A stretch of 64,000 nucleotides of DNA from Cohnella sp. SGD-V74 (GTDB lineage Bacteria; Bacillota; Bacilli; Paenibacillales; Paenibacillaceae): contig NZ_PVYW01000019.1 in the NCBI RefSeq assembly GCF_003001675.1, positions 1 through 64,000 on the forward strand, read 5' to 3'. This document shows, one piece after another, positions 7,210 through 60,701 of the stretch (its first letter is position 1; each line of letters opens with the position of its first letter). The notes beneath the pieces were generated by a model that had not been told where the DNA came from, did no database searches, and saw nothing but the letters and a program-made list of their open reading frames with translations. A program made the translations under genes and the position numbers.

Positions 7210-7787
7210 GCCCTTACGCCCGATTTCTGATCGAGGAAATTGCGCAGAATTTTCAGCCCGTAATCGGTCATGATCGACTCCGGGTGGAACTGTACGCCCT
7301 CCACGACGTACTCCTTGTGCCGCAGCCCCATGATCAGGCCTTCTTCCGTCTCCGCGCTGATCTCCAGACAGTCCGGAAGCGTCTCGCGCTTCACGATCAA
7401 GGAATGGTAGCGAGTCGCCGTGAACGGAGAGGGCAGACCCGCGAAGATCGTCTTGCCGTCGTGCTTGATCTCGGACGTCTTGCCGTGCATAAGCTGATCC
7501 GCGCGAATGACGTCTCCGCCGAACGCTTGTCCGATCGATTGATGCCCCAGGCATACGCCGAAAATCGGGATCTCTCCCTTGAACCGCTCCAGCAGCGCGA
7601 GGCTGATGCCCGCTTCGTTAGGCGTGCACGGTCCCGGAGAAATCAAAATATGGTCGGGCGCAAGCTTGGCGATGCCGTCCAGATCGATCTCGTCGTTGCG
7701 ATGAACGACGATCTCTTCGCCGAGCTCTCCTAAATACTGCACCAGGTTATACGTGAAAGAATCGTAGTTGTCGATCACCAGGATCAT
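7206..7787 (-). CDS. pabA: Aminodeoxychorismate/anthranilate synthase glutamine amidotransferase subunit
   Basis: Supplies ammonia from glutamine to PabB; in Bacillus-type organisms the same subunit often also serves anthranilate synthase (trpG). The 193 residues form a class I glutamine amidotransferase: N-terminal [26 protein letters not shown], the nucleophile elbow [15 protein letters not shown], and the C-terminal His-Glu pair in [13 protein letters not shown]. The start overlaps the pabB stop by 4 bp and its stop overlaps the pabC start by 4 bp. Confidence 0.96.
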
Positions 7788-43971: not shown

Positions 43972-44979
43972 TTACGGAACCTTTCGGCAGCTCTCGCGAA
44001 CAACCAGCTCGTGCGGAAGAATAATGTCTCCCTTCGCGGCTTCGGGGTCCGAAATCTGTTTCAGCAAGGTTTCCATGGTGATTTTGCCCATGTGATGGAT
44101 GGGCTGCTCCATCGAGGTCAGACGGGGGCGGACGAGCTCCGTCATCTGGCTGCCGTCGAACCCCATGACGGAGATGTCCTCGGGAATGCGCAGGCCGTGG
44201 TCCCAGATGCAATTCATCGCACCGATCGCCATATCGTCGCTCACGACGAACACCGCGCCGGGCCGCTGCTTGTTGTTCAGCAGCTCCTTCATGAGCTCGT
44301 AACCGCTCTTGACCTTGTAGTCGCCGAACCGAATGTTCTCATAGACGATCTTGACCGAATGGTCGGCGAGCGCATTGCGGTAACCGCTGTAGCGGTTCTG
44401 TCCGGAGGTCACGTCGCGCAGGTCGCCGCCGATAAACCCGATGCTGTCGTGGCCCAGCTCGATTAAATATTTCGTGGCGTCGTAAGCCGCCTGATAGTCG
44501 TCGATGATAATGGAAGTGAAGTCCTGATCCATCGGCTTGACACTGGAAAATACGACCGGGATGTTCGTCTTGTGGATTTGCGCGCGAATGTCTTCGTTGA
44601 TTTTCTCGTGCATGATAATGATGCCTTCCACGCGCATTTCCGTAAAGACGTTAAGGTACTTCAGCTCCTTGTCGATGTCCTCTATAATGTTGCACACCAG
44701 CAGATTATAGCCGTTCGAGCTCGCGGCTTCCTCGACACTGCTCAGGATGGTCGAATAGAAGCTGGAGGTCAAATCGGGCACGATGACGCCGATCAGGTTC
44801 GTCTTCTTGAGCACCAGGCTGCGCGCGATATGGCTCGGCGCGTACCCCAGCTGTTCGATCGCCTTATTGACCTTCCTTCGCATCTCGTCCTTGACGTATT
44901 TCTCGCCGTTCAACACTCTCGATACCGTGGTCACAGAGACTCCGGCCACTCGGGCCACGTCTTTGATTTTCGCTTGCAA
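43972..44979 (-). CDS. LacI-family transcriptional regulator at the end of the iol operon
   Basis: A 335-residue repressor. TTG at 44979 is well placed after AAAGGGTGA; GTG at 44988 is the alternative. The N-terminal HTH reads KIKDVARVAGVSVTTVSRVLNG, with the hinge helix APSHIARSLVLKK. The periplasmic-binding-like core follows (VIVPDLTSSFYSTIL, GHDSIGFIGGD, AVFVVSDDMAIGAMN, VMGFDGSQMTELV). It is the last gene after iolB (41 bp), so it is probably transcribed with the genes it controls. The effector could be an inositol intermediate or the imported glycoside; unknown. Confidence 0.92.
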   Translation of the reverse strand: MQAKIKDVARVAGVSVTTVSRVLNGEKYVKDEMRRKVNKAIEQLGYAPSHIARSLVLKKTNLIGVIVPDLTSSFYSTILSSVEEAASSNGYNLLVCNIIEDIDKELKYLNVFTEMRVEGIIIMHEKINEDIRAQIHKTNIPVVFSSVKPMDQDFTSIIIDDYQAAYDATKYLIELGHDSIGFIGGDLRDVTSGQNRYSGYRNALADHSVKIVYENIRFGDYKVKSGYELMKELLNNKQRPGAVFVVSDDMAIGAMNCIWDHGLRIPEDISVMGFDGSQMTELVRPRLTSMEQPIHHMGKITMETLLKQISDPEAAKGDIILPHELVVRESCRKVP

Positions 44980-45020
44980 TAGACTCACCCTTTAATTCTC
45001 GTCAGTAAACATGGTCATGG

Positions 45021-45896
45021 TTAGTTTCGACGAATTCCTCCGGAATTCCTCTTCGTTGCCTCGTCGATGGCTCCCTCTCCGACAGGGGCCCCGGGTACGA
45101 GCCAGGCGTGAGCGGGATCGTTGGCGATTCTCCAAGTCCGTCTAGGTCCGGCCATCACGTTCAAATAATAGACTTCGTAGCCGGGTGGAGCCGACACCGG
45201 GTGGTACCCTTCCGGTACGAGAACGACCTCTCCGTCGTTCACGGCCAGCGTCTCGTCCAACGAGCGATCGTCGGTATAGACTCTCTGAACGGCAAACCCT
45301 TGCTTCGGGCTGACCTCATAGTAATAGGTCTCCTCTAGCAGGGATTCGTCCGGCAGCGCGTCGCGATCATGCTTGTGCGGAGGAAAGCTCGACCAGTGGC
45401 CGGCCGGCGTGAATACCTCCACCACGAGCAAGCTGTCCGCGGCTTCCGTCTCCGGCAGAATATGATGGATGAGCCGAGCGGTGACGCCTTCGCCTCGATG
45501 CTCGACCGCCGTTTGCTCGGGGGAGATCAACCGAGCTTCCGCGCTTCCCATGCCGGGCGCCCAGCAAACCGCAAGCCGCAGCTCCGAACGTGCGGTCAGC
45601 GTAAACTCGTCTCCGGAGGGAACGTAGACGGAGAACGGGGGAATTTTCTCGAAGACGCTCATCCGGCGTCCGATCCGCTGCCATTGCGATCCGGAGGAGG
45701 TCGTCACGTCCGCCACGCCTCCCAGGAGAACGAGGCAAGCTTCGCGCTCTTCGGTGGCTCGCCGCAGCGTCGCCCCGGGCTCCAGCCGGTACACCTCGAA
45801 TCCGACGTGCGCCCAGCCGGCCGATTCCGGGGTAATGCGAAGCACATTGCCTTCGTCGTCCGGAGCCGGGCGGGGTTTTACGATTAGTTTGCTCAT
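45021..45896 (-). CDS. iolB: 5-deoxy-glucuronate isomerase
   Basis: Converts 5-deoxy-D-glucuronate to 2-deoxy-5-keto-D-gluconate in inositol catabolism. From ATG at 45896 (8 bp after AAGG) it is 291 residues, the usual length; the longer frame upstream is in iolA. It is a bicupin: N-terminal FEVYRLEPGATLRRATEEREACLVLLGG, then HWSSFPPHKHDRD with the metal-binding His residues, ETYYYEVSPKQGFAVQRVYTDDRSLDE and EGYHPVSAPPGYEVYYLNVMAG. It is separated from iolA by 38 bp. Confidence 0.96.
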   Translation of the reverse strand: MSKLIVKPRPAPDDEGNVLRITPESAGWAHVGFEVYRLEPGATLRRATEEREACLVLLGGVADVTTSSGSQWQRIGRRMSVFEKIPPFSVYVPSGDEFTLTARSELRLAVCWAPGMGSAEARLISPEQTAVEHRGEGVTARLIHHILPETEAADSLLVVEVFTPAGHWSSFPPHKHDRDALPDESLLEETYYYEVSPKQGFAVQRVYTDDRSLDETLAVNDGEVVLVPEGYHPVSAPPGYEVYYLNVMAGPRRTWRIANDPAHAWLVPGAPVGEGAIDEATKRNSGGIRRN

Positions 45897-45934
45897 CCTA
45901 GCAGCCTTCTTTCCCGTAGAGGTTGGGGCCGGTT

Positions 45935-47389
45935 CTACCAGCGGGAGGTGACCATTTTCTTTCTCGTATAAAATTCCACTCCGTCCGTGCCGTTGGCATG
46001 CAGGTCTCCGTAAAACGATTTTTTCCACCCGGAGAACGGGAAGAAGGCCATGGGAGCCGGAACGCCCAGATTGACGCCCAGCATGCCGGCATCGATCGTC
46101 TCGCGGAATTGCCGCACGTTGGAGCCGTCCTGCGTGAAAATGCAAGCCCCGTTGGCCAGCTCGGAACGGTTGGCGATCTCGATCGCCTGCTCCAGCGAAT
46201 CGGCGCGAACGATCGACAGCACCGGCGCGAAAATCTCTTCCTGCCATATTTTCATCTCGCAGGTCACTTGATCGAAGATCGTCGGTCCGACGAAATAGCC
46301 CTCGCCGCCGCTTGTCGCGTCCCGACGCCCGTCTCTGAGGAGAACCGCCCCTTCGCTCTCGCCCGATTCGATGTAGCCCAGCGTACGATCCTTATGCGGG
46401 CCGCGAATGACCGGTCCAAGGAAAACCTCCTTGTCCATTCCGTTGCCGACGACCAGTCGGTCGGCCGCAGCCACGAGCTTCCCGACCAGCAAATCGTAGG
46501 CCTCCGCAACGGGAACGACGACCGCGCAAGCCATGCATCGCTCTCCGGCGGAGCCGAATGCGGCGTTCATAATTTGCGAGACCGCCCCGTCCATGTCCGC
46601 GTCCGGCATGACGATGGTATGATTTTTGGCGCCGGCCAGCGCTTGCACTCTCTTGCCCCGCGCCGAGGCCGTCTTGTAGACGTGTTCGGCGACCGGCTGG
46701 GAGCCGACGAAAGAGATCGCGATTACGTCCGGATGCTCCAACAGGCCGTTCACGATGTCATGCGAGCCGTGAACGACGTTTAGTACTCCGTCCGGCAGAC
46801 CGGCCTCCCGGATGAGCTCGGCCAGACGATTGGCAAGCAGCGGTGTGCGTTCGGACGGCTTCAATACGAAGGCGTTGCCGCAGGCGATCGCAAGAGGGAA
46901 CATCCAACAGGGGACCATCATGGGGAAGTTGAACGGGGTAATGCCGCCAATGACGCCAATCGGGTAACGATACATCCCCGACTCCACGTTCGTCGCGATG
47001 TCCGGAAGCTGCTTGCCCATCATCAGCGAAGGCGCTCCGGCCGCGAATTCCACGCATTCGATGCCGCGCAGCACCTCCCCGTGCGCTTCGTGGTAGCTCT
47101 TCCCGTTTTCCTTCGTAATGATCTCGGCCAGCTCTTCCCAATGCTCCGTCAGCAGCTGCTGGTACTTGAACAAGATTCGGGCTCTGCGAGGGACGGGAGT
47201 TTTGCTCCAGGTTTTGAACTGCTCCTTCGCCGCCGCGACGGCGCGATCCAGATCCGTCTTTGAGGAGATCGGAACATGAGCCAGAACCTCCTCGGTCGCC
47301 GGATTGTATACGGGTTCGGTTACGGTCGAATCGGAGGCGACCCACTCGCCCCCGATGAAGTTTTTCAAGATTGCGGCTGTTTGAATCAT
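45935..47389 (-). CDS. iolA: Methylmalonate/malonate-semialdehyde dehydrogenase (CoA acylating)
   Basis: Oxidises malonate semialdehyde to acetyl-CoA at the end of inositol catabolism; also valine degradation (mmsA). From ATG at 47389 after GAGGTGG it is 484 residues. Aldehyde dehydrogenase features: [42 protein letters not shown], the catalytic Cys in [14 protein letters not shown], and [20 protein letters not shown]. The residue pattern is that of the MSDH subgroup. It lies between iolC (20 bp) and iolB (38 bp). Confidence 0.96.
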
Positions 47390-47409
47390 TTCGGATACCA
47401 CCTCTCGCA

Positions 47410-48405
47410 TTATTGACGTTGCGCCGACCGCATGAAATCCTCGACCTGCCGAAGCCTCGGCATGGCGTCGGAACAGCTGTGGCTGGAGATGACGATCGAA
47501 GCGCACGCGCTGCCGAAGGCCATGCTGCGGCCGACTTCCCAGCCCTGCATCAAACCATAGATGAATCCGGCGGCATAGGAGTCGCCCGCGCCGAACGTCT
47601 TGACGACCTTCGCCGGGAAGATCGAGCCCCGCTCCGCGCTCCCATCCTTGCCGTAGGCGATCGAACCGTCCTTGCCGTGCTTGATGACGACGATCTCCGC
47701 GCAATGATCGAACCACGCTTTCGCCGTCGCATCGTCGCTGCGCTCGCGATCGCCGTCAAACCGCTCCAGCCTATCGAACTCCTCGCGCGTGCCGATGATA
47801 ATGTCGCTCTTCTCCGCTGCGAGCTGATAATAAACCGCCGTCTCCTCCGGGGATTTCCATGTATAGGGCCGATAGTCAATGTCGAAAACGACTTTGACGC
47901 CGTGCTTGCGGGCATAGCGAAGCGCCAGCAGCACCGCCTCGCGAGACGGGCTCTTCGCGAGCGCCGTACCCGAGACCAGCAGCGTCTTGCTGCGCGCGAT
48001 CAGCGCCTCGTCGACCTCGTCCGGCGCGAGCAGCAGGTCGGCAGCGTTATCCCGGTACATCAGAATGCTGCAGTCCTCGGGGCTCTTGATTTCTGTGAAG
48101 GCCAGTCCTGTAACCGCCCCGGTCCGATCCGTGACGACGCCTGACAGGTCGATGCCGCAATCGCGCAAATATTGCGCGATGAACCGGCCCATCTGATCGT
48201 CCGCCACTTTGCCGATAAACCCGGATTTCATGCCCAGACGGGACATTCCGATGCAGATGTTGGCCGGCGAGCCGCCGACGTACTTGGTGAAGGTGACTGT
48301 CTCCTCCATCGGACGATGGATTTCGTTCGCGTTCAGGTCGATGCACAGTCGTCCTATCGCCACGAAATCGAGCTCTCTGTCGGAATTGAATCGTACCGCG
48401 TTCAT
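47410..48405 (-). CDS. iolC: 5-dehydro-2-deoxygluconokinase
   Basis: Phosphorylates 2-deoxy-5-keto-gluconate. From ATG at 48405, 5 bp after GGGAGGGG, it has 331 residues; upstream codons belong to iolD. PfkB-family features are [14 protein letters not shown], the first signature [26 protein letters not shown] and the ATP/catalytic loop [15 protein letters not shown] near residue 275. The next enzyme, the IolJ aldolase, is not in this window. Confidence 0.95.
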
Positions 48406-48419
48406 GTCTTCCCCTCCCG

Positions 48420-50288
48420 TTAATAAGGGCGAGCGGCCTCGACTCGCTGCCGCATTCTCCCGTGTGCCTCCAGCACCTTGCCGCTGGCTGACGCTGCGGG
48501 CACGCCCACGTGCCACCACGATTCGTAACCGCCCGTATTCGTTCCCGCGAGCACCTTGATCTCGATCAGCGCCGGACCTCGCTCCGCCTTCGCGTCGTTC
48601 AACGCCCGCTTCAGCTGCTCGGCGTCGCGCGCCGTGTAAGCCGCCGCCCCGAGACCGCGCGCGATCGTCGCGAAATCGATGGGCAGACGAGCGCCGTCCA
48701 GCTTTCCGCTCTCCTTGGAGCGGAAGCGGAACTCGTTGCCGAAGCCGTCGCTGCCATGCTCTCTCTGCAGATTGTGAATGCACTGGAAGCCGCTGTTGTC
48801 GAAGAGCAGAACGGTCAGCTTGACCCCTTCCTGAATGGCGGTCACCAGCTCCGAATGCAGCATCAGGAAGCTGCCGTCGCCGACGATCGCGTAGACGTCA
48901 CGCTCCGGCTCCGCGAGCGCGGCTCCGAACGCGCCGGAAATCTCGTAGCCCATGCAAGAGAAGCCGTATTCCAGGTGATAGGTTTTCGGCTCGCTGCAGC
49001 GCCAGAGCCGATGCAGATCGCCCGGAAGGCTCCCGGCCGCGCCGACCGCGACGGCCCTCGGACCGGCGAATTCGTTGACGATGCCCAGCGCCCTCGTCTG
49101 CGTCAGCCCCTCCGGCGACTCCAGGCCGTATAGCCGATCGACCTCCCGATCCCACTCCGCCTTGCTCTCTCTAATGGATTCCGCCTCATAGCCGGACCGA
49201 TAGCCGCGTTCCGATAACCGCTCCCGGAGCGCAACGAGCGTAAGCTTGGCATCCGCCGTCACGGCCGCCGCGTCCAGCTTCGCCGTGTCGAACGAGCTGA
49301 CGTTCAGACTCAGGAAGGCCGCTTCCGGGTTCCGGAACGCCGATTTGGAGGCCGTCGTAAAATCGGTAAACCGCGTGCCGACCCCAATGATCAGATCGGC
49401 TTCAGCGGCGAATCGGTTCGCCGCCAGAGTGCCGGTCGTGCCGACTCCTCCGAGGCTCAGCGGATGATTCCAGGCCATCGCGCTCTTGCCCGCCTGCGTC
49501 TCCGCGACCGGAATGCCGAAATCCTCGGCGAAAGCCAGCAGCTCCTTGGTCGCGTCCGCGTAGTGAACGCCTCCGCCCGCAACCAGCAGCGGCCTCCGCT
49601 TGCTCGCGACCAGCTCGACCGCCCGCTGTAAGGCGTCCGGAGCCGGCGGACGGCGCTCCAGGCAGTGGACGCGCTTCGCGAAGAAGCTCTCCGGATAATC
49701 GTAAGCTTCCGCCTGGACGTCCTGCGGCAACGCGAGCGTCACGGCCCCCGTATCGGCCGGATCGGTCAGCACGCGCATGGCGTGCAGCAGCGACTGCATC
49801 AGCTGCTCGGGACGGACGATACGATCCCAGAAGCGGCTGACCGCCTTGAACGAATCGTTGGCCGATACCGTGTAGTCTCCGGGAACCTCCAGTTGCTGAA
49901 GCACCGGGTCGGGCTGCCGGGAAGCGAAGTTGTCTCCGGGCAGCAGCAGGACGGGAATCCGGTTCACCGTCGCCGTAGCGGCTCCCGTTACCATATTGAG
50001 CGCGCCCGGTCCGATGGAGGACGTGCACGCGAAGATTTGCCTGCGGTTCTTTTGTTTCGCATAGGCCGTCGCCGCGTGCACCATCCCTTGCTCGTTCTTC
50101 CCCTGAATGAAGGCCAGGCTGCCGGCGGCACCCCGCTCCAGCGCCTCGCCGATGCCCGTAACGTTGCCGTGACCGAATATGCCCATCACCCCGGCGACGA
50201 ATTTCGTTTCCTCGCCGTCCACGGATACGTATTGCCGATCCAGAAATTTCAACAGCGCTTGCGCCATGGTCAATCGAATTTTGTTCAT
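48420..50288 (-). CDS. iolD: 3D-(3,5/4)-trihydroxycyclohexane-1,2-dione hydrolase
   Basis: A thiamine-diphosphate enzyme that hydrolyses the six-membered ring of the inositol-derived dione to 5-deoxyglucuronate. The 622 residues match IolD. The N-terminal PYR domain includes [18 protein letters not shown] with the conserved Glu, and [29 protein letters not shown] in part. The central domain holds [16 protein letters not shown]. The C-terminal PP domain has the diphosphate motif [16 protein letters not shown]...LLFDN. It starts 48 bp after the GH38 gene. Confidence 0.96.
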
Positions 50289-50336
50289 TGCCGTCCCTCG
50301 ATTTGTATGGTTTGAACGTGCTTCGCGGGCTGCGTC

Positions 50337-53300
50337 CTACGCCAGCTTCACGATGAACGTCTTGATCTCGTAAGGCTTGATCTCGAAGCTTGCGGACTCG
50401 GATTCGGCCGCGCCGGACATGGGCTGCTCCATCAAGGTACACTCCCGCAAGGACACGATCCGGCAGTCTCCGGTCATCTCCACCCGGCTGCGCAGGCCCG
50501 CGTATTCATGAACGCGCACGACGAGCCGTTCGCCGTCCTCCGACTTCTTCACGGCGTCGACCATCACGTTCGGAGCCGACAGCGTCAGCAAGGAGAAGCC
50601 GCCTGGCTTCGCGCCGGAGCCCTTCCGGGCGGTAAGCGGATTGTTGAGGCTCCACGCTTCCCGAACCGTGCCTGCCGAATACCAGTCTCCCTCGTGCGGG
50701 TAAAGGGCATAGACAAACGAGTGCTCGCCGATGTCCGCGTCCGGATCGGGATGAACGGCCGATTTGATCAGGGACAGCCGCATCACGTTGTCCTTGATGT
50801 CGTAGCCGTATTTGCAATCGTTCAACAGGCTGACGCCGTAGCCGCGCTCGGACAGGTCGGCCCATTGATGTCCGACCGTCTCGAAGCGCGCCCAGTCCCA
50901 GCTCGTATTCCAGTGCGTAGGGCGCTTGACGTTGCCGAACTGAATGTCGTAGGTCGCCTCCGTCGCGCGCACGTCCACAGGGAAAGCGACCTTGAGCAGC
51001 CGCTGACGCTCCCGCCAGTCGACGCGCGTCTTGAAGTCGATGCGCCGGCTATCGGCGTAGACGGTCATCCTCTGGATGACGACGGATTGCCCGCAGCGCC
51101 ATTCGAATTCGACCGCGGCCGCCAGCGGCCCCGTCCCCACCAGCTCGGCGGAAACCAGATCGGACACCTCCTTCATCTTCTCCCGGTAGAAGATGTCGAT
51201 GTCCCAGGCATCGAAATGGAGCGGCTTATCCTCGAACACTTGCAGCACGTTGCCCCGCTGCCCGCTCGCCAGCACGTCGCGTCCGTGATCCTTGTCGTAG
51301 ATTCGGGTCAGTTGGCCCGCTTCGTTCCACGCCAGCTCGTAATACGGCGTCTGCAGCGAACGGCCGTCCAATCGAAAGGGAATGCGCTCTCCGTCTCCAT
51401 CGCCAGCCCCCGCCGACTTCGGCGCGCAATGAATGTGGGCCAGACCCAGCGAGGGGATGACCGGCGTCTCGATGCGCCATGTTCCCTCGGCCAACTGCGC
51501 CCGCAGCGGGCGGCCCTCGGCATCCGTCCAAGCGCTGCCGGAGGCCGCGGCGCTCCCGTCCAGCTCCAGCACATCCCGTCTGGCCCACGAAGAACTGTTG
51601 AAGACGACGAACGTTCTTTCCGTCGCCGCGCCGCCGACGGACTGCGCGGCTTCTTCCCAGACCTTCGCCGCGATGGCCTCGGCCTCGGCGTACTCTTCCC
51701 GGCTGTCCTGATAGACCTCCGCGATCGAGGAGCCCGGAATAATGTCATGGAACTGGTTGCGCAGAAGGATCGTCCAGCCCTCGTTCAGCTGACGCTGCCG
51801 ATAGCCGTTCCAGTCCCCTTGCACGGTCGCGGCGACCGCGCTCAGCCATTCGGTCTCGCGGTACAGCAATTCGAGCTTGCGGTTCATCTTCTTGTTGTAA
51901 GCCTGGCTGGTGTACGTTCCGCGGTGATATTCCAAATACAGCTCGCCGTCCCACGTATGCACGTATCGATCAGACTCTTCGACCGTCTTCTGAAGCCGCT
52001 CGAAATAATCGTCCGCGCGGCCCGGCTTCACGTGCGGCAGACCGGGAAGCTTGTCGAGCCTGCGGCACATCTCCAGCATCTCCCGGTTGACGCCGCCCCC
52101 TCCGTCCCCGTAGCCGTAGGACAGCAGAAGCTCCTGGTTGATCTCCTTGTCGCTGTAGGCGTTCCAGGCCCCTTGCACCGTCTCCGCGGTCAGAAGGCCG
52201 TTATACGTATAGAAGAAGGCGTTGGCCTCTTCCCAATCGTCCGGCGTCGTAATGAAATGCGTCAGCACCTCCGAGCCGTCGAGTCCGCGCCAGCGGAACG
52301 TATCGTGCGGCATCCGGTTGTATTGGTTCCAGCTGATCTTCGTCGTCATGAACGTATCGAAGCCGGATTTGCGCAGAATTTGCGGCAGCGCCCAACTGTA
52401 GCCGAACACGTCCGGCAGCCACAGGTACTTGCTCTCCGCTCCGAACTCCTCGCGCATGAAGCGCGTGCCGAACAGAAACTGCCGGACAAGCGATTCCCCG
52501 GAGGTCAGGTTACAGTCCGCTTCCAGCCACATGCCTCCGCCGATCTCCCAACGTCCTTCGCGAATCCGCTCGCGGATCTGCTCGTAGATTTGCGGATAAT
52601 CCTGCTTGAGGTACGCGTAGAGCTGAGGCTGCGTCTGCAAAAATACGTATTCCGGGAACCGCTCCATCAGGCGCAGCACCGTAGAGAACGAGCGGGCGCT
52701 CTTCTCCCTCGTATGCTTAAGCCGCCACAGCCAGGCGACGTCGATATGCGTATGCCCGACTGCCGTTACCGTAACCGCGGAATGCTTGTCGAGCTTGGAC
52801 AGCTCTTCGTGCAGGCGCTCCCTCGCCTCGCAGACGGAAGCATAGAAAGCTTCCGATTCCGGATAGGACCAGTCGATCGCCAGCAGCGCACGATCCAGCG
52901 CCTTGGTCAGAGCGATGCGGTCGGAGCAACCGTTCTCCAGTACCCGAATCGTATCCAGCACCGCTGTCCCCGTGTAATACAGATCGTCCGTTTGCTCGTC
53001 CAGCCAACAGAGCTCGGCGCGGCGAATCGTGTGCGCCCTCTCCCGGGGCGGGCCTCCGCCTTCCAGCCCCGACCATAGCCGAATATCCAGCCTTCCCGTC
53101 GAACCGGCCGAGCCGGTCGGCAGGAACACCTCTTGGTGATTGCTGTCCACGCCCTGGTACGGCGCTCCGTTCCAATAGAGCAGCGCTTCGAAGCCTTCGT
53201 TGTTGCCCCCGCCCGTCTCTCCGAAGTCGAAGCGCCCGAGCGCGGTCTTACCCGCCCATTCCGACGGAATCTCGACCGAACGCGTCAGCCAGACATAGCG

Positions 53301-53486
53301 GTCGCGGCCTTTCCAGGTTTCCCCGAGCCTAAGCTCGAATTCGGGCTCTCCCGCAGGAGGCGCTTCTCCGATCTCTCCATGCCTGTCCTCAACGGCTCCG
53401 AATGCCGTCAGCGGAATGGCATCGCGATAGCGCGCTTCGCTCAGCTGCTTTAATCGGGCGTTTAATTTCGATTCGGTGAAAAACAT
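50337..53486 (-). CDS. Alpha-mannosidase, glycoside hydrolase family 38
   Basis: A 1049-residue cytoplasmic GH38 enzyme (no signal peptide). An N-terminal beta domain is followed by the catalytic domain with the zinc motif GHTHIDVAWLWRLKHTREK (about residues 245-263), EIGGGMWLEADCNLTSGE and the nucleophile Asp in YLWLPDVFGYSWALPQIL near residue 358. Then come a central helical domain and beta domains with DKDHGRDVL and KRPTHWNTSWDWARFE. It would cleave terminal alpha-linked mannose from an imported oligosaccharide. Its place directly ahead of iolD, with an ABC importer upstream, suggests a substrate with mannose and perhaps inositol. Confidence 0.94.
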   Translation of the reverse strand: MFFTESKLNARLKQLSEARYRDAIPLTAFGAVEDRHGEIGEAPPAGEPEFELRLGETWKGRDRYVWLTRSVEIPSEWAGKTALGRFDFGETGGGNNEGFEALLYWNGAPYQGVDSNHQEVFLPTGSAGSTGRLDIRLWSGLEGGGPPRERAHTIRRAELCWLDEQTDDLYYTGTAVLDTIRVLENGCSDRIALTKALDRALLAIDWSYPESEAFYASVCEARERLHEELSKLDKHSAVTVTAVGHTHIDVAWLWRLKHTREKSARSFSTVLRLMERFPEYVFLQTQPQLYAYLKQDYPQIYEQIRERIREGRWEIGGGMWLEADCNLTSGESLVRQFLFGTRFMREEFGAESKYLWLPDVFGYSWALPQILRKSGFDTFMTTKISWNQYNRMPHDTFRWRGLDGSEVLTHFITTPDDWEEANAFFYTYNGLLTAETVQGAWNAYSDKEINQELLLSYGYGDGGGGVNREMLEMCRRLDKLPGLPHVKPGRADDYFERLQKTVEESDRYVHTWDGELYLEYHRGTYTSQAYNKKMNRKLELLYRETEWLSAVAATVQGDWNGYRQRQLNEGWTILLRNQFHDIIPGSSIAEVYQDSREEYAEAEAIAAKVWEEAAQSVGGAATERTFVVFNSSSWARRDVLELDGSAAASGSAWTDAEGRPLRAQLAEGTWRIETPVIPSLGLAHIHCAPKSAGAGDGDGERIPFRLDGRSLQTPYYELAWNEAGQLTRIYDKDHGRDVLASGQRGNVLQVFEDKPLHFDAWDIDIFYREKMKEVSDLVSAELVGTGPLAAAVEFEWRCGQSVVIQRMTVYADSRRIDFKTRVDWRERQRLLKVAFPVDVRATEATYDIQFGNVKRPTHWNTSWDWARFETVGHQWADLSERGYGVSLLNDCKYGYDIKDNVMRLSLIKSAVHPDPDADIGEHSFVYALYPHEGDWYSAGTVREAWSLNNPLTARKGSGAKPGGFSLLTLSAPNVMVDAVKKSEDGERLVVRVHEYAGLRSRVEMTGDCRIVSLRECTLMEQPMSGAAESESASFEIKPYEIKTFIVKLA

Positions 53487-53514
53487 CGCGACGCTCCCCG
53501 CTTTCTATCCGATT

Positions 53515-54270
53515 TCATCCCAACGTTTTTTCCAGCTTCAACAAATGTTCCAGGCTCATCGCCAAGCTGTCGAACGGACTTCCCGAGCAGTAGTCCTGCT
53601 CCACCGCGAACCATTCGACGCCATTCTGCAGTCCCCATTGGAGGATAGGCGCAAAATCGATGACCCCCGCTCCGATCTCGGCGAACGTCTGCCTGTCGTC
53701 CGCCGTCATATCCTTGAGATGCAGAATCGGCATGCGGTTCGCGTATTGGCGAATGAAAGATAGCGGGTCGTGTCCGGCTTTGCGCACCCAATACGTATCG
53801 ATCTCCGCATAGACGGACGGATCGTCCAGCAAATATTCGAGGGCGAATTTGTTCTCGATTGTCGTATGGAATTCGAAATCATGGTTATGATAGCCTGCGC
53901 GATAGCGCGTCCCCTTGATGTTGGAGGCGACCTCCAGCAAATCCTTCTTAACGCTGATGTAACCCTCCACGTTTTGGAGTCCGTCAGGAAGCGAGTGGCA
54001 GATGAAATCCGGAGTTTCGAAGAGATCGGCTTCCTCCAGCACGGCCTTCAAGTCGTTCTTCATCCGCTCCAGCCCGACGTGCATTCCCGCCGCTCTCAGC
54101 CCCAACTCCTTCATGACGGCGGCAATATCGCGCGCGGGATAACCGTGCAGCCCGTCGATCTGGACGGCCGCCCAGCCCATCTCCTTCAATCGCCTCAAGA
54201 CGCCGGGGAAATCCTTCTTCGCTTCGTTCCTGAGCGTGTACAGTTGCGCGGCCAGCTTATGTCTGATCAT
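53515..54270 (-). CDS. Sugar phosphate isomerase/epimerase, TIM barrel (IolE/IolI-like)
   Basis: A 251-residue xylose-isomerase-like barrel. Visible are AAQLYTLRNEAKKDFPGVLRRLKEMGW, CHSLPDG, the YHNHDFEF motif, the metal ligand region EIDTYWVRKAG, HLKDMTADDRQTFAEIGAG and the closing WFAVEQDYC with the metal-binding Glu. Inosose dehydratase (IolE), inosose isomerase (IolI) and ketose epimerases share this fold, so it might supply one of the missing inositol steps; that is inference. Its ATG overlaps the preceding aldo/keto reductase stop by 4 bp. Confidence 0.85.
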   Translation of the reverse strand: MIRHKLAAQLYTLRNEAKKDFPGVLRRLKEMGWAAVQIDGLHGYPARDIAAVMKELGLRAAGMHVGLERMKNDLKAVLEEADLFETPDFICHSLPDGLQNVEGYISVKKDLLEVASNIKGTRYRAGYHNHDFEFHTTIENKFALEYLLDDPSVYAEIDTYWVRKAGHDPLSFIRQYANRMPILHLKDMTADDRQTFAEIGAGVIDFAPILQWGLQNGVEWFAVEQDYCSGSPFDSLAMSLEHLLKLEKTLG

Positions 54271-55208
54271 CGTCCAATCTCCTCCGTTCTCAGATCGAGC
54301 CAGTCGACCTCTTGTTGGGTGAGCCGCAAATTCATGGCCTTAACGGAATCCTCAAGCTCCGCCGGATTGCGGGGGCCGATAATGGCTCCTGTGGGAAAAG
54401 CCTGGTAGAGCACATAGGCCAGCGAGATTCGAATAGGCGGAACACCCATGCGCTCCGCCAACTCCATCGCCCGCCGGTACCGTTCCCAGTTCTCTTCGCT
54501 GTAATAGACGCGGACCATCTCGGAGTCCGACCGATTATCCGGCGTAAAGTGGCCCGAGAAAAAACCGCCCGCCTGCGCCGACCAGGACAGCAGCGGAATC
54601 CGCGTGCGCGCATGCCAGTCGACCGTCGGCCGATCGGCGGAGATGCAGCCTTCCCACCTGGGTTCGTTGGCCTTGGCCAGGCTCAAGTTCGTGCTGCTGA
54701 ACGCAAATCCCGTCAGTCCGCGCGCCTCGGCATATTCGTTCGCCTCCTGAACTCGCCGGTACGCCCAGTTGGATGCGCCGATCGCCCGGATTTTCCCGGC
54801 GGCGAGCTGCTCGTTCAGCTCTTCGACGATCGGTCCGACCTCCACGGTCGGATCGTCGCGATGGAGCATGTAGAGATCGATATAGTCGGTGCCTAATCTC
54901 TCCAGGCTTTCGGACAAATCCTTGCGAATGGCTCCCGGATTGACGCGGGGCCCCGGACTTCCGTCGTCGTGATGGGCGCCCTTGCACAGAATGACGACCC
55001 GGTCGCGAATCTTCTTCTCCGCGATCCAGTCTCCGAGTATTTTTTCTTTGCCGCGATATTGATGGGCGGTATCGAACGCGTTGCCCCCGGCGGCGATATA
55101 CGCATCGAACATCTGCCGCTTGGGTTCGTCCATCACCCTCAAATCTCCCGTGCCCATAATCAGCCGCGACATTTTTTTGCCCGCGCCCGGAATTTCAATG
55201 GTTTGCAT
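54267..55208 (-). CDS. Aldo/keto reductase
   Basis: A 313-residue NADPH-type oxidoreductase barrel. Motifs: SRLIMGTGDLRV, GGNAFDTAHQYRGKEKILGDWI with catalytic Asp and Tyr, the catalytic Lys in VVILCKGAHHD, the His in LYMLHRDDPTVEV, GASNWAYRRVQEA and the cofactor loop GAIIGPRNPAELEDSV. Substrate unknown; in this operon it may oxidise or reduce a sugar or cyclitol, possibly standing in for the missing inositol dehydrogenase IolG. Good GGAG Shine-Dalgarno (AAGGAGAATGCGGC). Confidence 0.9.
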   Translation of the reverse strand: MQTIEIPGAGKKMSRLIMGTGDLRVMDEPKRQMFDAYIAAGGNAFDTAHQYRGKEKILGDWIAEKKIRDRVVILCKGAHHDDGSPGPRVNPGAIRKDLSESLERLGTDYIDLYMLHRDDPTVEVGPIVEELNEQLAAGKIRAIGASNWAYRRVQEANEYAEARGLTGFAFSSTNLSLAKANEPRWEGCISADRPTVDWHARTRIPLLSWSAQAGGFFSGHFTPDNRSDSEMVRVYYSEENWERYRRAMELAERMGVPPIRISLAYVLYQAFPTGAIIGPRNPAELEDSVKAMNLRLTQQEVDWLDLRTEEIGR

Positions 55209-55240
55209 GCCGCATTCTCCTTAAGTATCGCGAGTTGTAT

Positions 55241-56212
55241 TCAAAGCTGGCTTCCATGCGCCACCGTCTGCGACTGGGACAGCTCGGAATCGTGTTCCCG
55301 AATGAAATCTTCCAGGCCGGCCAAATCCTTCGCGCCCGTGCTTCCTCCGTAAGCCCCGACGGACAGGGCGCCGCTGGCATTACCGTACTTCAAGCAGGCG
55401 GCGATATCCAACCCGGACAAGAAGCCGTACAAATAGCCGGAGTTGAACGAGTCGCCTGCTCCCGTCGTATCCACGAGCCGCACAGGATAAGCCGTGCACG
55501 AGTATTGCACGCCGTCCATCACGGCGGCTGCGCCTCTGGCGCCCAGCTTAATGACGACTTGCTTGCCGTACTCGCCCATATAGCGCAGGCAATCCTCTAC
55601 TTTCTCAAGCCGGGTGTAATGACGCGCCTCCGTTTCGTTCATGAAGAAGACGTCCATATGGCTCATCAGCTCGAACACGCCCTCGTACCATTCCTCCGTA
55701 TCGTCCCAGCCTACATCGCAGGACAGCGTCAGTCCTCGTTCCTTCAACCGCTTGACCGCAGTCAAGTAGCGCTCGTGATTGCTTCTTCCCTTGTATCCGG
55801 TAATGTGGACATGGCCGCCTAGCGCCATTTCCTCCAGATCGATATGGTCCATGCGCAGTTCCTGGTTGGAGCCGGCATAGGAAATGAAGGAGCGGTCCGA
55901 ATCCGTGTTGAAAGCAATGGAGATGCCGGTATGGTGGATCGCGCTCGTCTTGATAAAAGAGGTATCTATCCCGTGCAGGGCGAACTCCTCGCGAATGAAT
56001 CTTCCCAAATGATCGTCGCCGAGAATGCCGTTAAAGGCGACGCGAAGGCCAAGCTTGGCCAGCGAGATCGCGAACAGGGCCGCGCCGCCTCCGACGTTCA
56101 TCAGCATATTGTCCACGAAGATTTCCTGCCCTTTGGCCGGAACTTGATTGCCGCCCACCACGATCAGATCGATGTTGGCGTCCCCGATCACAATGACATC
56201 AAACTTTTTCAA
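55241..56212 (-). CDS. PfkB-family carbohydrate kinase
   Basis: A 323-residue ribokinase-like enzyme. DVIVIGDANIDLIV at the N-terminus, MNVGGGAALFAISLAKLG as first PfkB signature, SYAGSNQELR, and the second signature LVDTTGAGDSFNSGYLYGFLSG with the catalytic Asp. It lacks the IolC-specific residues and is distinct from iolC in the same operon, so two sugar kinases act in the pathway. It overlaps the permease gene by 4 bp. A hexose such as mannose or fructose released by the mannosidase is a possible substrate. Confidence 0.9.
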   Translation of the reverse strand: MKKFDVIVIGDANIDLIVVGGNQVPAKGQEIFVDNMLMNVGGGAALFAISLAKLGLRVAFNGILGDDHLGRFIREEFALHGIDTSFIKTSAIHHTGISIAFNTDSDRSFISYAGSNQELRMDHIDLEEMALGGHVHITGYKGRSNHERYLTAVKRLKERGLTLSCDVGWDDTEEWYEGVFELMSHMDVFFMNETEARHYTRLEKVEDCLRYMGEYGKQVVIKLGARGAAAVMDGVQYSCTAYPVRLVDTTGAGDSFNSGYLYGFLSGLDIAACLKYGNASGALSVGAYGGSTGAKDLAGLEDFIREHDSELSQSQTVAHGSQL

Positions 56213-57036
56213 CTTTTTACTGCCCCTTCCATAATGCCCGCGATGAATTGACGACTGATGATCAAGAAGAAAACAATGAGTGGAATCGTCGCCAACAGCG
56301 TCCCCGTCATCACCATCGAGTAATCGGCCGTATGCACCGATTTTAATTGCTGCAGCACGAGCATCAGCGTGAACTTGGAGGAATCGTTAAGGATGATGAG
56401 CGGCCATAAGTAATCCTCCCACACGCCCATGAACGTCGTAATCGCCAAGAAAGCCAGAGCCGGCTTCAGAATCGGCAGCGCGATGCGCCAATACAGCCCG
56501 AACTTGCTGCACCCGTCGATCGTGGCCGCCTCCAGCAGCTCGTCGTGAATGGCCATTGCGTACTGCCGGATCCAGAAAATGCCGAAGGCTGTGGCGATGC
56601 CCGGTACGATTAATGCGTAATAGCTGCCGATCCAGCCGATCTCCTTCATGATGATAAACTGCGGAACGAGCAGCATCTGGCCCGGGATCATCATCGTGGC
56701 CATCATCAGGAAAAACAGAAGGTGCCGTCCCGGAAACTTGAATTTGGAGAAGGTAAAGCCCGTTAAGGAATTAAAGAAGAGCTGCAGCGCGGTACTGACC
56801 GACGCGACGAACAGCGTATTCAGCAGCGCTCGCCAGAAGTCGATGCTGTCCATGACTTTCCCGAAGTTGGTCGCGAACGAATCGCCGAAGGTAAACCTGG
56901 GCGGGACAGCAAAGATCGCGGCCGTTTCATTGGTGGACATGACCACCAGCCAATAGAACGGGAATATGGACAGCAACACGCCGATGACCAAAAAGGCATG
57001 AGCAAATGTTTTGCTGATCAGCAGGTTATGACGCAT
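56209..57036 (-). CDS. ABC transporter permease, MalG type
   Basis: The second integral-membrane subunit of a carbohydrate importer. From ATG at 57036 (9 bp after GGGGTG) it has 275 residues; TTG at 57060 is an alternative. Six helices are predicted, with the EAA loop EAATIDGCSKFGLYWRIALPILKPAL in part near residue 180, which contacts the ATPase. No ATP-binding gene is present here; such importers in Firmicutes share an MsmX-type ATPase. It overlaps the kinase gene by 4 bp. Confidence 0.94.
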   Translation of the reverse strand: MRHNLLISKTFAHAFLVIGVLLSIFPFYWLVVMSTNETAAIFAVPPRFTFGDSFATNFGKVMDSIDFWRALLNTLFVASVSTALQLFFNSLTGFTFSKFKFPGRHLLFFLMMATMMIPGQMLLVPQFIIMKEIGWIGSYYALIVPGIATAFGIFWIRQYAMAIHDELLEAATIDGCSKFGLYWRIALPILKPALAFLAITTFMGVWEDYLWPLIILNDSSKFTLMLVLQQLKSVHTADYSMVMTGTLLATIPLIVFFLIISRQFIAGIMEGAVKS

Positions 57037-57056
57037 GAATTTGTTCACCCCTTGTC

Positions 57057-57944
57057 TCAATCATCGGACTTATTGAATAGCTTCCAATTAATGATCGATA
57101 TGATGCCGATAATAACGAACAGCACCCACGATACCGCGGCCGCATACCCGTAATTCTGGTAAATAAAGCCTTCGCGGAACATATACAGCACGATCGTGTC
57201 CGAGCCCGGATACGGCGAACTGTTGTTGCCGGCCAGCACCTGCGGTTCGGTGAAGATCTGGAAGCCGCCGATCGTCGACATCATGACGGCGAACAGGATG
57301 ATCGGCCTGAGCATCGGCAGCGTAATTCTCCAGAAAACCTGATGCGTTCTGGCGCCGTCCAGCTCGGCCGCTTCGTAAAGATCCTTCGGTATTCGCTGCA
57401 ATCCGGCGAGGAAAATGATCGCGTTGTAGCCCATGTACCTCCAGCCGATCATCGCGGCAATGATGGTGCGAACTCCGAATTCGGTGTTGAACCACGGAAT
57501 TTTGCCCAGGCCCAGCTTCTCCAGCACAAAATTGATCAGGCCGTATTCATTGCCGAACAGGGATTGAAATATAATAACGACTGCGACCATAGCCGTAATA
57601 TTCGGAAGAAAAAAGGCGATCTTGAAAAAACCTTTGAAGCGGACAATGGACAGGTTGATGACGAAAGCCACGACCAGGGCGCAGAACAACTGAGGAGCGT
57701 TGCCCATCACCCATAACGCCAAGTTATTGACCAGCGCTTGCCAGAAGGACGGATCGGTCAGCATATACTTGAAATTGTTCAAACCGACGCTCTTCATCTC
57801 GCCTATGCCGTCCCACTTCTGCGTGGAGAGATACATGGAGAAGAAAATCGGAAATACCGAAAAGATCAAAAACAAAATATAGAATGGAGAAATAAACAAA
57901 TACAGTATTCGGTTTTTGATAATCTCCTTGAATAGAGCTCCCAT
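57057..57944 (-). CDS. ABC transporter permease, MalF type
   Basis: The first membrane subunit of the same importer. The start at 57944 lies 6 bp after GGGGGA; ATG at 57950 is too close to it. The 295 residues have six helices, the N-terminal ILYLFISPFYILFLIFSVFPIFFSMYLS in part, and the EAA loop EAAELDGARTHQVFWRITLPMLRPI in part near residue 190. It is located 90 bp after the binding-protein gene and 20 bp before the second permease. Confidence 0.94.
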   Translation of the reverse strand: MGALFKEIIKNRILYLFISPFYILFLIFSVFPIFFSMYLSTQKWDGIGEMKSVGLNNFKYMLTDPSFWQALVNNLALWVMGNAPQLFCALVVAFVINLSIVRFKGFFKIAFFLPNITAMVAVVIIFQSLFGNEYGLINFVLEKLGLGKIPWFNTEFGVRTIIAAMIGWRYMGYNAIIFLAGLQRIPKDLYEAAELDGARTHQVFWRITLPMLRPIILFAVMMSTIGGFQIFTEPQVLAGNNSSPYPGSDTIVLYMFREGFIYQNYGYAAAVSWVLFVIIGIISIINWKLFNKSDD

Positions 57945-58033
57945 GCTCATTCCCCCGTGAATTTGACGAGGCAGGGTCCGACTTGCCGGTCCCCGCCCCC
58001 GTCTCCTATTTCGTTCCTAGGATAAGAATCGAA

Positions 58034-59338
58034 TTACCGAGAAAGCTGTCGCTTGATTTTGTCCTGGGCGCTCGTCCAAGCCTTCTCCGAGTCCTGCTTC
58101 TGCACGTCGACCAGCTTCAACGATTCGACGAGCGAATTGCCGACCATATCGTCGTTGGCGTTCGTGTGCGGAATTTGGACGTCCTTGGCCGCGTCGGCGA
58201 ATACCGCGCTCAAGTCCTGACCTCCGAAAAACTCATGCTCGTTCACCATATCCGGCGAATCGTAAATTTCCGGCGTGGACGGATAGTTGCCGAATTCCTT
58301 GTAGCTCGCAATCTGATTGTCCGGTCCGAGCAGGAATTTAAGTACGTCGTACGCTTCCTGCGGGTACTTGGTCGATTTCAGCACTCCGAAGAAGGAGCCG
58401 CCCTGGTTGCCAACTCCGCCTGGAGGGTACGCGATTTTCCACTTCCCGTTCGTATCCGGAGCCGCACCCAGCAGGTCGCCCACGACCCAGCTCGCGCCGA
58501 TCATAGATGTGATAGCGCCGTTGTTCAGGGACGCGTTGATCTCGCTGTCGTTGGACGCCGGGAAGGTCAAGCCTTCCTGGTAAGCCTTCACGGAGAGATC
58601 CCAAGCTCTCTTGATGTGCTCCTGATCGCCGATATAGTTGCCTTCGAGATCAAAGAAGCCTTCGCTGTTCTGGCCGATAATGCTGCGGAACACATCCACC
58701 AGCGTCATCGTCTGGGTGCCGGTCGAATCCTTCACCTTCTTCAGGAGCTCGAAGAAGTCTTCCCAGGTCGCGATTTGACCTTTGACGTCCTCGGGCGCAC
58801 TGGAAAGGCCGGCTTGCTCGTAAACGTCGCCGCGATAATACAGCACGACCGGCGCGACGTCGATCGGCAGGCCGATCAAGTATTCGTCCTTGGCGTCGGC
58901 GGCCATCTTCCACTTCCAGTCCAAATACTGGCTTTGAATGTCTCTGGCCCCGTGATCGTACAGATTGACGAACTTTTCTTTGTACTCCAGCATCGATGCG
59001 ACCCAGCTGTCCATTGCGACAATGTCCGGACCGCTGCCTCCGCCGGAAATCGTCGTCTTCAGCTTAGTCAGATAATCGCCGCCCGAAGGAAGCTTCTCCG
59101 CATTCAGCTCGACATTGGGGAATTTCTGCCTCGCCGCCTCGATGACGGAATCCGAGATCGCGCCGTTCCAGTACCACAGTTTAAGGGAAACTTTCTCGTT
59201 GGATCCCGCCGCATTCGACGGACTGGAAGGACTGGGAGCGGAGCTGGCGTTATTTTTGTTGTTGGACGAACTGCAAGCGCTGACCACCAAAATGACGCAG
59301 AGAACCAGAATGAACCCGAGATAAGATTTTGTTTTCAC
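58034..59338 (-). CDS. Extracellular solute-binding lipoprotein of a sugar ABC importer
   Basis: A family 1 sugar-binding lipoprotein of 434 residues. GTG at 59338 is 8 bp after GGGGGA (GTG at 59344 also possible). The signal peptide ends in lipobox VVSAC, followed by a Ser/Asn-rich linker. The mature part has SLKLWYWNGAISDSVIEAA, DIVAMDSWVASML, GLPIDVAPVVLYYRGDVYEQAGL and TSMIGASWVVGDL, typical of oligosaccharide binders. It is the first gene of the proposed operon, with two LacI-type operators upstream. The ligand is unknown. Confidence 0.94.
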   Translation of the reverse strand: MKTKSYLGFILVLCVILVVSACSSSNNKNNASSAPSPSSPSNAAGSNEKVSLKLWYWNGAISDSVIEAARQKFPNVELNAEKLPSGGDYLTKLKTTISGGGSGPDIVAMDSWVASMLEYKEKFVNLYDHGARDIQSQYLDWKWKMAADAKDEYLIGLPIDVAPVVLYYRGDVYEQAGLSSAPEDVKGQIATWEDFFELLKKVKDSTGTQTMTLVDVFRSIIGQNSEGFFDLEGNYIGDQEHIKRAWDLSVKAYQEGLTFPASNDSEINASLNNGAITSMIGASWVVGDLLGAAPDTNGKWKIAYPPGGVGNQGGSFFGVLKSTKYPQEAYDVLKFLLGPDNQIASYKEFGNYPSTPEIYDSPDMVNEHEFFGGQDLSAVFADAAKDVQIPHTNANDDMVGNSLVESLKLVDVQKQDSEKAWTSAQDKIKRQLSR

Positions 59339-59445
59339 CGACACGTTCCCCCTACTTGGATTTTGTTAATCGCATTGCTCAGATGCTCTTCCGCTTACTT
59401 GGCGCTGTCGATTTAAGGGCGATCACCACCTTTTCGTAATCAACC

Positions 59446-59467
59446 TTTATGGTACCGATACCATAAA
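59446..59467. promoter_or_regulatory. LacI-type operator O1
   Basis: Arms TTTATGGTA and TACCATAAA are perfect inverted repeats separated by CCGA (22 bp). The site lies about 110 bp upstream of the binding-protein gene and 220 bp downstream of the lacI stop codon at 59686. Confidence 0.8.
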
Positions 59468-59543: not shown

Positions 59544-59565
59544 TTTCTGGTACCGATTCCATAAA
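59544..59565. promoter_or_regulatory. LacI-type operator O2
   Basis: A second copy of the 22-bp site with two changes, left arm TTTCTGGTA, right arm TTCCATAAA, same CCGA centre and same orientation. It lies 98 bp from O1, compatible with looping by a tetramer or with two dimers. Confidence 0.75.
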
Positions 59566-59621: not shown

Positions 59622-59635
59622 TGCAAGCGCTTTAA
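59622..59635. promoter_or_regulatory. Possible cre site (CcpA)
   Basis: TGCAAGCGCTTTAA matches the catabolite-responsive element consensus with two mismatches. It sits upstream of both LacI operators, near the lacI 3' end. Catabolite repression of a sugar operon is expected, but this site is weak. Confidence 0.35.
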
Positions 59636-60681: not shown

Positions 60682-60701
60682 GTTTTCACCTTTCGGACCG
60701 A

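Follow-up and report, generated by a model that had tools for sequence, protein, structure and literature searches.

A candidate operon for alpha-mannosylated inositol glycans in Cohnella sp. SGD-V74, with a putative second entrance to IolD

The window analysed here, 64,000 nucleotides of contig NZ_PVYW01000019.1 from Cohnella sp. SGD-V74, carries an operon that joins a sugar importer and a predicted GH38 alpha-mannosidase to the lower inositol (iol) enzymes IolD, IolC, IolA and IolB. In the canonical iol pathway two steps, oxidation by IolG and dehydration by IolE, come before IolD (excerpted text of PMC9603128). How could inositol reach IolD through an operon that encodes neither enzyme?

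By a narrow lean, we think that this would be a LacI-controlled operon for degrading alpha-mannosylated inositol (perhaps inositol-phosphate) glycans, in which an aldo/keto reductase (AKR) and a TIM-barrel enzyme (TIM) replace IolG and IolE. The substrates are possibly inositol phospholipid head groups of the glycosylphosphatidylinositol (GPI), phosphatidylinositol mannoside (PIM) or fungal inositolphosphoceramide type. In the pathway that we infer, the ATP-binding cassette (ABC) importer would take up a soluble glycan and a cytosolic GH38 would strip its alpha-mannose. Oxidation of the inositol unit by the AKR would give a keto-inositol, from which TIM, acting as a metal-dependent eliminase, would remove the group beta to the ketone; the product would be the diketone opened by IolD. 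IolB, IolC, an IolJ from elsewhere and IolA would complete the breakdown, and the PfkB kinase would phosphorylate the released sugar. The AKR-TIM pair, rather than the GH38, seems to us the more novel element.

Gene content of the operon

The operon consists of 12 closely packed minus-strand genes (43972-59344), with a largest gap of 83 bp and three 4-bp overlaps:

58034..59344, minus strand: ABC sugar-binding lipoprotein (SBP; SBP_bac_8 by Pfam; lipobox VSAC)
57057..57950, minus strand: ABC permease 1 (BPD_transp_1 by Pfam)
56209..57060, minus strand: ABC permease 2 (BPD_transp_1 by Pfam)
55241..56212, minus strand: PfkB-family kinase (Pfam), different from IolC (25% identity)
54267..55208, minus strand: AKR (Pfam), proposed stand-in for inositol dehydrogenase
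53515..54270, minus strand: TIM, keto-glycoside eliminase-like by sequence and structure model, proposed stand-in for IolE
50337..53486, minus strand: predicted GH38 alpha-mannosidase of 1049 aa, Ams1-like (Pfam)
48420..50288, minus strand: IolD, trihydroxycyclohexane-1,2-dione hydrolase (NCBIfam)
47410..48405, minus strand: IolC, 5-dehydro-2-deoxygluconokinase (NCBIfam)
45935..47389, minus strand: IolA, (methyl)malonate-semialdehyde dehydrogenase (NCBIfam)
45021..45896, minus strand: IolB, 5-deoxyglucuronate isomerase (NCBIfam)
43972..44988, minus strand: LacI-family regulator (Pfam and NCBIfam), proposed reader of the operator described below

The SBP gene, which has two possible starts (59344 or 59338), is followed after 83 bp by permease 1. 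The two permease genes overlap by 4 bp, as do permease 2 and PfkB; a gap of 32 bp leads to AKR, which overlaps TIM by 4 bp. The remaining gaps are 28 bp (TIM-GH38), 48 bp (GH38-IolD), 14 bp (IolD-IolC), 20 bp (IolC-IolA), 38 bp (IolA-IolB) and 32 bp (IolB-LacI). The gene number, strand, order and tight spacing given in the original prediction are all borne out by the gene calls and by Pfam and NCBIfam. Promoter-like sites numbered 9, where shuffled sequence gave 5.5 (sd 2.1), and terminator-like sites numbered 10, where it gave 14.5 (sd 4.1), no clear signal in either case.

All four lower enzymes were over their NCBIfam cut-offs: IolD with 940 bits (cut-off 715), IolC with 418 (300), IolB with 349 (205) and IolA with 624 (448.5, subfamily model MMSDH). 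For IolE, TIM reached 28.9 bits compared to an equivalog cut-off of 290, and the other nine proteins scanned against NCBIfam were unmatched; TIM was rejected as an ordinary IolE on this score. There was no Gfo/Idh/MocA-type match for IolG among the 12 proteins. IolJ was not found among the operon's genes; a class II aldolase resembling it lies within the cluster in 7 of 46 related neighbourhoods. Inositol is not a substrate of IolD, and the operon encodes neither IolG nor IolE; inositol freed by the GH38 could therefore not enter IolD directly. This is where the flow first suggested for the locus, from mannosidase-released inositol into IolD-IolC-IolA-IolB, breaks down, since it skips two steps for which the operon holds neither gene.

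The AKR-TIM pair

The AKR residues Asp46-Tyr51-Lys76-His116 are kept in 16 of 16 aligned sequences. We take Asp-Tyr-Lys-His to be the tetrad of the AKR superfamily, of which this protein carries the complete set. Its nearest solved relative is AKRtyl, and IolS (1pyf) is the fourth sequence match. AKRtyl is a macrolide-related reductase of subfamily AKR12D (see PMC10923870).

TIM is a xylose-isomerase-like TIM barrel that falls just under the Pfam gathering score (29.3 compared to 31.1), and its best solved relative by sequence is AtOGE (E 5e-26). When a structure model (predicted local distance difference test, pLDDT, 95) was compared with the PDB by Foldseek, the lowest E-values belonged to AL1, BT1, AtOGE and uncharacterised Parabacteroides isomerases, while the first IolE stood at rank 13. 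AL1 and BT1 are the Alistipes and Bacteroides 3-keto-beta-glucopyranoside-1,2-lyases. Identity in the Foldseek matches separates the eliminases (20-29%) from IolE (15-17%). Query-normalised TM-scores were 0.77-0.80 for AL1, 0.69-0.73 for AtOGE, 0.77-0.79 for IolE and 0.81 for Art22 isomerase. IolE and the eliminases perform comparable chemistry, in which a ketone is present, a neighbouring proton is lost and the next oxygen substituent is lost.

The metal residues of AtOGE are His132, Asp163, His189 and Glu233, and its catalytic residue is His134 (available part of PMC10628242). These align with His128, Asp158, His184, Glu224 and His130 of TIM. The four metal residues are conserved throughout two overlapping alignments of 56 and 17 sequences; His130 is conserved throughout the first and in 16 of the 17 sequences of the second. 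TIM has the fold, the metal residues and the catalytic histidine of a keto-glycoside beta-eliminase of the AtOGE/AL1 kind, and it is kin to these enzymes ahead of IolE by sequence and by Foldseek E-value. Canonical IolE, about 20% identical to TIM, also retains the His-Asp-His-Glu set. A second TIM paralogue (45% identity) lies in the same genome at locus L165 (G000:C9:212500-232400), outside mapped iol context.

One alternative is that the pair acts simply as an inositol dehydrogenase and an inosose dehydratase on a free cyclitol, perhaps another isomer, while glycosidases do all of the deglycosylation. This follows the same gene logic, and it is consistent with the metal residues that TIM shares with IolE and with TM-scores that are similar for IolE and AL1; the closer relation of TIM to the keto-glycoside eliminases by sequence and Foldseek E-value argues the other way.

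Another alternative is that AKR and TIM form a 3-keto-glycoside pathway on the sugar side and that freed inositol passes through IolG and IolE. The pair does lie near characterised structures of that kind (AL1, BT1 and AtOGE for TIM; AKRtyl of AKR12D and the DepB reductases for AKR), and there are TIM relatives at 42-50% identity outside iol loci. On the other hand, AtOGE left an alpha-linked keto-disaccharide uncleaved (PMC10628242, same part), and the glycans supposed here are alpha-linked. This alternative also sits badly with the genome survey below, in which TIM never occurs without iolD and some genomes pair iolD and AKR-TIM with no IolE match. We regard it as improbable.

Recurrence of the pair with iolD

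To follow the pair beyond the window, 295 genomes of the host's family were searched for TIM (at least 59% identity), IolD, IolE (E <= 1e-60) and the IolG orthologue (E <= 1e-60). TIM was found in 44 genomes, counting G087 where the match is split in two pieces, iolD in 191 and IolE in 184. All 44 TIM genomes have iolD compared to 147 of the 251 others (Fisher 7e-10), and TIM is present in all eight of the 191 iolD genomes, from four genera, that have no IolE match (Fisher 5e-6); the surveyed genomes are related, so these values overstate independence, to the cost of our proposal. That these eight genomes keep the AKR-TIM pair is a further result that a direct flow of freed inositol into IolD does not accommodate. 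None of the eight has the IolG orthologue, which is a weaker test, as six TIM genomes with IolE likewise have none (G137, G047, G108, G023, G004 and G007). Two of the eight, G141 and G050, are single-contig assemblies. In G050 and G163, iolD lies beside iolJ-, iolC-, iolB- and iolA-like genes, apart from AKR-TIM.

The pair also occurs more widely. Of 398 genomes sampled across the class, 10 contain a TIM match at 1e-60, seven of them from other families. Two genomes of one such family, G594 and G554, carry the order phosphotransferase system (PTS) EIIC - hexosamine-6-phosphate deaminase-like - AKR - TIM - IolB-C-A-D (L197 6400-15626 and L199 4343-13391, respectively), with 945 bits for the L197 IolD. 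No IolE over cut-off was found in either genome, the best match having 36 bits. The deaminase-like protein is over the Pfam cut-off and under that of every NCBIfam model. A family survey around G594 gave matches in 2 of 23 genomes.

Among 80 named loci with the nearest GH38, 18 carry AKR, TIM and GH38 (L009, L010, L012-L022, L024, L025, L046, L049 and L052), 11 of them with iol genes in the stretch; these counts overlap with the family-survey loci and are not additive. L011 has the AKR with no TIM match. The gene order is perm-perm-LacI-PfkB-AKR-TIM-GH38-IolD-C-A-B in Cohnella and Paenibacillus and GH38-AKR-TIM-IolB-C-A-D in Bacillus FJAT-27245, while in P. baekrokdamisoli AKR-TIM-GH38 adjoins a full canonical operon. 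Chance adjacency of iolDCAB and GH38 was rejected, as the arrangement recurs across several genera, with other orders in Neobacillus and Bacillus.

The surroundings of TIM were mapped at 46 loci from 43 genomes other than the host, by BLAST with identity floors of our choosing and about 10 kb on each side; some stretches are off-centre and one is ended by a contig end. BLAST maps were used for the counts because a codon-model gene caller missed TIM in 4 of the 46. AKR is present in 44 neighbourhoods, LacI in 36, PfkB in 34, iolD in 29, GH38 in 24, GH125 in 18, GH2 in 14, GDPD in 14 and metallophosphoesterase in 6. Both iolE and iolG are missing from the stretch in 21 of the 29 neighbourhoods with iolD and present in the other 8. 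Three of the 21 (L148, L160 and L161) have iolD near the stretch end, and their genomes have no IolE over cut-off anywhere. Pfam applied to cluster representatives identified GH125, GH2, GDPD, metallophosphoesterase, GH4, a second kind of GH38 and class II aldolase; an endonuclease/exonuclease/phosphatase-family protein (Exo_endo_phos) was found in L052 by Pfam and occurs also in L049. The phosphoesterases suggest inositol-phosphate head groups. The link between mannosidase and inositol that had been read from the window is thus conserved, and the genes added in orthologous loci, for GH125 as a second alpha-mannosidase family, for GDPD as a glycerophosphodiesterase and for metallophosphoesterase, fit a mannosylated inositol-phosphate; the substrate itself is still an inference. 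An M17 aminopeptidase family gene stands beside AKR or in a phosphoesterase cluster (L160 and L247 by Pfam, L161 by cluster), where a peptide-trimming role would be speculative. Cluster c17 looked PHP-like by eye, and its representatives had no significant Pfam match.

The neighbourhoods do not put the GH38 at the centre of the system: with 24 of 46 carrying it, it looks accessory. The enzyme itself appears intact. It has four GH38-type Pfam domains (GH38N, middle, C) over gathering score, and HTHID, WLPDVFG and FHDIIPG, which we assume to be the GH38 metal and nucleophile motifs, are identical in 16 of 16 aligned sequences. It has neither a lipobox, such as SBP has, nor a signal peptide by eye. 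Its best solved relatives are 7vqo, 6lz1, 7dd9, 5jm0 and 7ufr. The 29 AKR-TIM-linked enzymes form three supported groups (19/20, 8/9 and 2/4 rows) in a 91-row GH38 tree, on which the AKR-TIM label needs 5 changes compared to 24.9 for shuffled labels. GH38 was rejected as a marker of the system on its frequency in the neighbourhoods and on these five changes.

The PfkB kinase had been assigned to the hexose released by the mannosidase. It may not simply handle GH38-released mannose, as 12 of its 34 loci have no detected mannosidase; similarity searches with SBP and PfkB indicated no substrate. Where PfkB was not seen, ROK-family genes (kinase or regulator) occur in L155 and L158 by cluster and PTS in L197 and L199. 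None of the five glycosidase types sought is present in 18 of the 46 neighbourhoods. This agrees with action of the pair on a free cyclitol; the possible kinase slot (PfkB, ROK or PTS) persists without glycosidases, however, and suggests a released sugar, which may stem from the core itself. Overall, we judge that alternative unlikely, though worth keeping in view.

A bolder form of our proposal, which is speculative and rather doubtful, accounts for such a sugar. The AKR would make a 2-keto-inositol that is still sugar-linked, and TIM would eject that sugar, from position 6 of D-myo-inositol, instead of water. A single step would then break the sugar-inositol bond and yield the natural diketone of IolD, with no need for IolG, IolE or the last glycosidase. 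By our own derivation from the cyclitol numbering rules, loss of the D-6 substituent would lead to the 3D dione and loss of the D-4 substituent to its mirror image. In GPI anchors the substituent at position 6 is glucosamine, and in PIMs it is mannose. Elimination of the sugar predicts, for glucosaminyl-inositol, glycosidase-free operons of the PTS-deaminase-like-AKR-TIM-IolB-C-A-D type. The HMM scan of ten operon-region genes in L197 found no glycosidase, and the L197 and L199 operons are candidate glucosaminyl-inositol operons.

Several observations weigh against replacement of IolG and IolE by AKR and TIM. IolE is over cut-off in 36 of the 44 TIM genomes. The host itself has a separate canonical operon on contig C16 (iolD-E-C-A-G-B, then a LacI gene) with IolE and the IolG orthologue, so AKR-TIM is not strictly required here. 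G141 and G260 encode divergent IolE-like proteins (105-114 bits compared to the cut-off of 290) that might act as IolE. There is no iolD within about 10 kb in 17 of the 46 neighbourhoods, though those genomes have it elsewhere; of the seven remoter TIM relatives from other families, five, at 49-54% identity, have none within 10 kb. The window operon has no phosphoesterase or GH125 itself. The proximity of the AKR to an AKR12D macrolide-related reductase leaves room for a reductive or sugar-side role, TM-score places the TIM model as near IolE 9zmv (0.79) as AL1, and the proposed catalytic His130 is Glu in the TIM orthologue of Neobacillus L049. That orthologue lies at 14983-15747, and AKR and iol genes adjoin it despite the substitution.

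The canonical operon on C16 and the frequency of IolE among TIM genomes would also suit a third alternative, in which GH38 frees myo-inositol, canonical IolG and IolE elsewhere process it, the extra IolD-C-A-B add capacity and AKR and TIM are minor. The 8 of 46 neighbourhoods that put AKR-TIM beside iolD with iolE and iolG point the same way. Such spare capacity does not explain why the eight family genomes and the two of another family that have iolD and no IolE over cut-off all carry TIM or its orthologue, nor why iolE and iolG are missing from 21 of 29 iolD-bearing neighbourhoods, and we give it little probability.

A shared operator, flanking genes and related systems

The spacer upstream of the SBP gene contains two palindromes of the form TGGWAYCGRTWCCA. 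Orthologous neighbourhoods have in common a LacI-type 14-bp operator, TGGTATCGATACCA, of which the window has two copies:

59450..59463, no strand assigned: operator copy 1, TGGTACCGATACCA, upstream of the SBP gene
59548..59561, no strand assigned: operator copy 2, TGGTACCGATTCCA, upstream of the SBP gene

These are the only two matches in the 8.2-Mb host genome, and both stand before the operon. The operator occurs at 39 of the 46 TIM loci and at 16 of the 19 related named loci, some of which come from the same genomes, compared to 0 of 60 other GH38 loci, 0 of the 14 that represent the other TIM lineage and 0 of 3 stretches around the canonical operon; L023 is in neither group of this comparison. 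Genome-wide it is present in 43 of 44 TIM genomes, with 169 sites compared to 4 for the reversed pattern, and in 15 of 44 hand-picked genomes from the 147 TIM-less iolD genomes, with 21 sites compared to 11. The LacI regulator of the operon may bind it. With a general LacI-type half-site pattern there were 4 matches, a number reached by 16 of 100 shuffles. In the same spacer, TGCAAGCGCTTTAA at 59622-59635 has one mismatch to a LacI/CcpA-type half-site pattern, which is not significant alone; it could be a catabolite-repression site.

Distal operator sites, from among the matches listed, were viewed in 19 stretches of 13 genomes. They lie at ABC-LacI-PfkB-metallophosphoesterase clusters (L242, L243 and L247, with GDPD in L242 and L247; L247 also has an M17 aminopeptidase and a fucosidase and adjoins a canonical iol operon), at metallophosphoesterase genes (L252 and L256), at GH2 with an esterase and GDPD (L255), at a second LacI-PfkB-GH125-AKR-GH38 cluster without TIM (L253 and L257) and at an S-layer-domain protein (L246). 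The site in L258 looks unrelated. The clusters at L241, L244, L248 and L249 encode two permeases, an isomerase-like protein and a LacI that is further removed, at about 30% identity; their matching palindromes include TGGTACCGGTACCA, and they are perhaps a related but distinct regulon. In L245 an operator stands upstream of a protein of about 522 aa (6022-7590) with a weak X25 match (22.4 compared to 27 bits), and a similar cluster, c37, occurs in the L128, L146, L149 and L150 neighbourhoods.

Directly upstream of the operon, Pfam identifies a further LacI-family regulator gene (59686-60936, minus strand) and a GH116-family glycosidase gene (60702-63164, minus strand), a possible glycolipid link. 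On its other side a luciferase-like monooxygenase frame (40756-42073, minus strand) is in two pieces and may be a broken gene; 40756-41430 matches Bac_luciferase (Pfam), and 41579-42073 resembles the N-terminal part by eye.

Among known systems, the canonical iol operon of the Bacillus subtilis type, as represented by the host's own, shares IolD, IolB, IolC, IolA and a LacI-type regulator with the window operon, which differs in having AKR, TIM, an extra PfkB, an ABC importer, GH38 and its own operator and in having no IolG, IolE or IolJ. TIM shares the fold of AtOGE and AL1/BT1 and the Mn-site and catalytic residues of AtOGE (PMC10628242, the part already cited); unlike them it is linked to iol genes, has an AKR partner and no identified hydratase partner, and would act on a keto-inositol. 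The Ams1-type GH38 alpha-mannosidases are the closest solved relatives of the window GH38, which is bacterial, sits in an inositol operon and is an alpha-mannosidase by prediction. The excerpt of PMC9007349 proposes, for a later step of the pathway, an alternative aldolase rather than an alternative entrance. The nearest published arrangement that we found is in Geobacillus, where, in the accessible portion of PMC4428132, an alpha-mannoside cluster with an ABC importer and an intracellular alpha-mannosidase adjoins an inositol-phosphate iol cluster; it differs in forming two clusters with separate regulators and in having canonical IolG and IolE. The window GH38 shares 61% identity with that of G. 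thermodenitrificans (L038), and the L038 stretch has no AKR-TIM match.

A large share of soil inositol should occur within glycolipids and glycan anchors, and our searches of open-licence PMC papers found no dedicated bacterial route to inositol bound in this way. The AKR-TIM pair and the 14-bp operator are simple genomic markers. If a second entrance to IolD exists, a genome that has no IolE or no IolG can still belong to an inositol user, and its annotation may be wrong.

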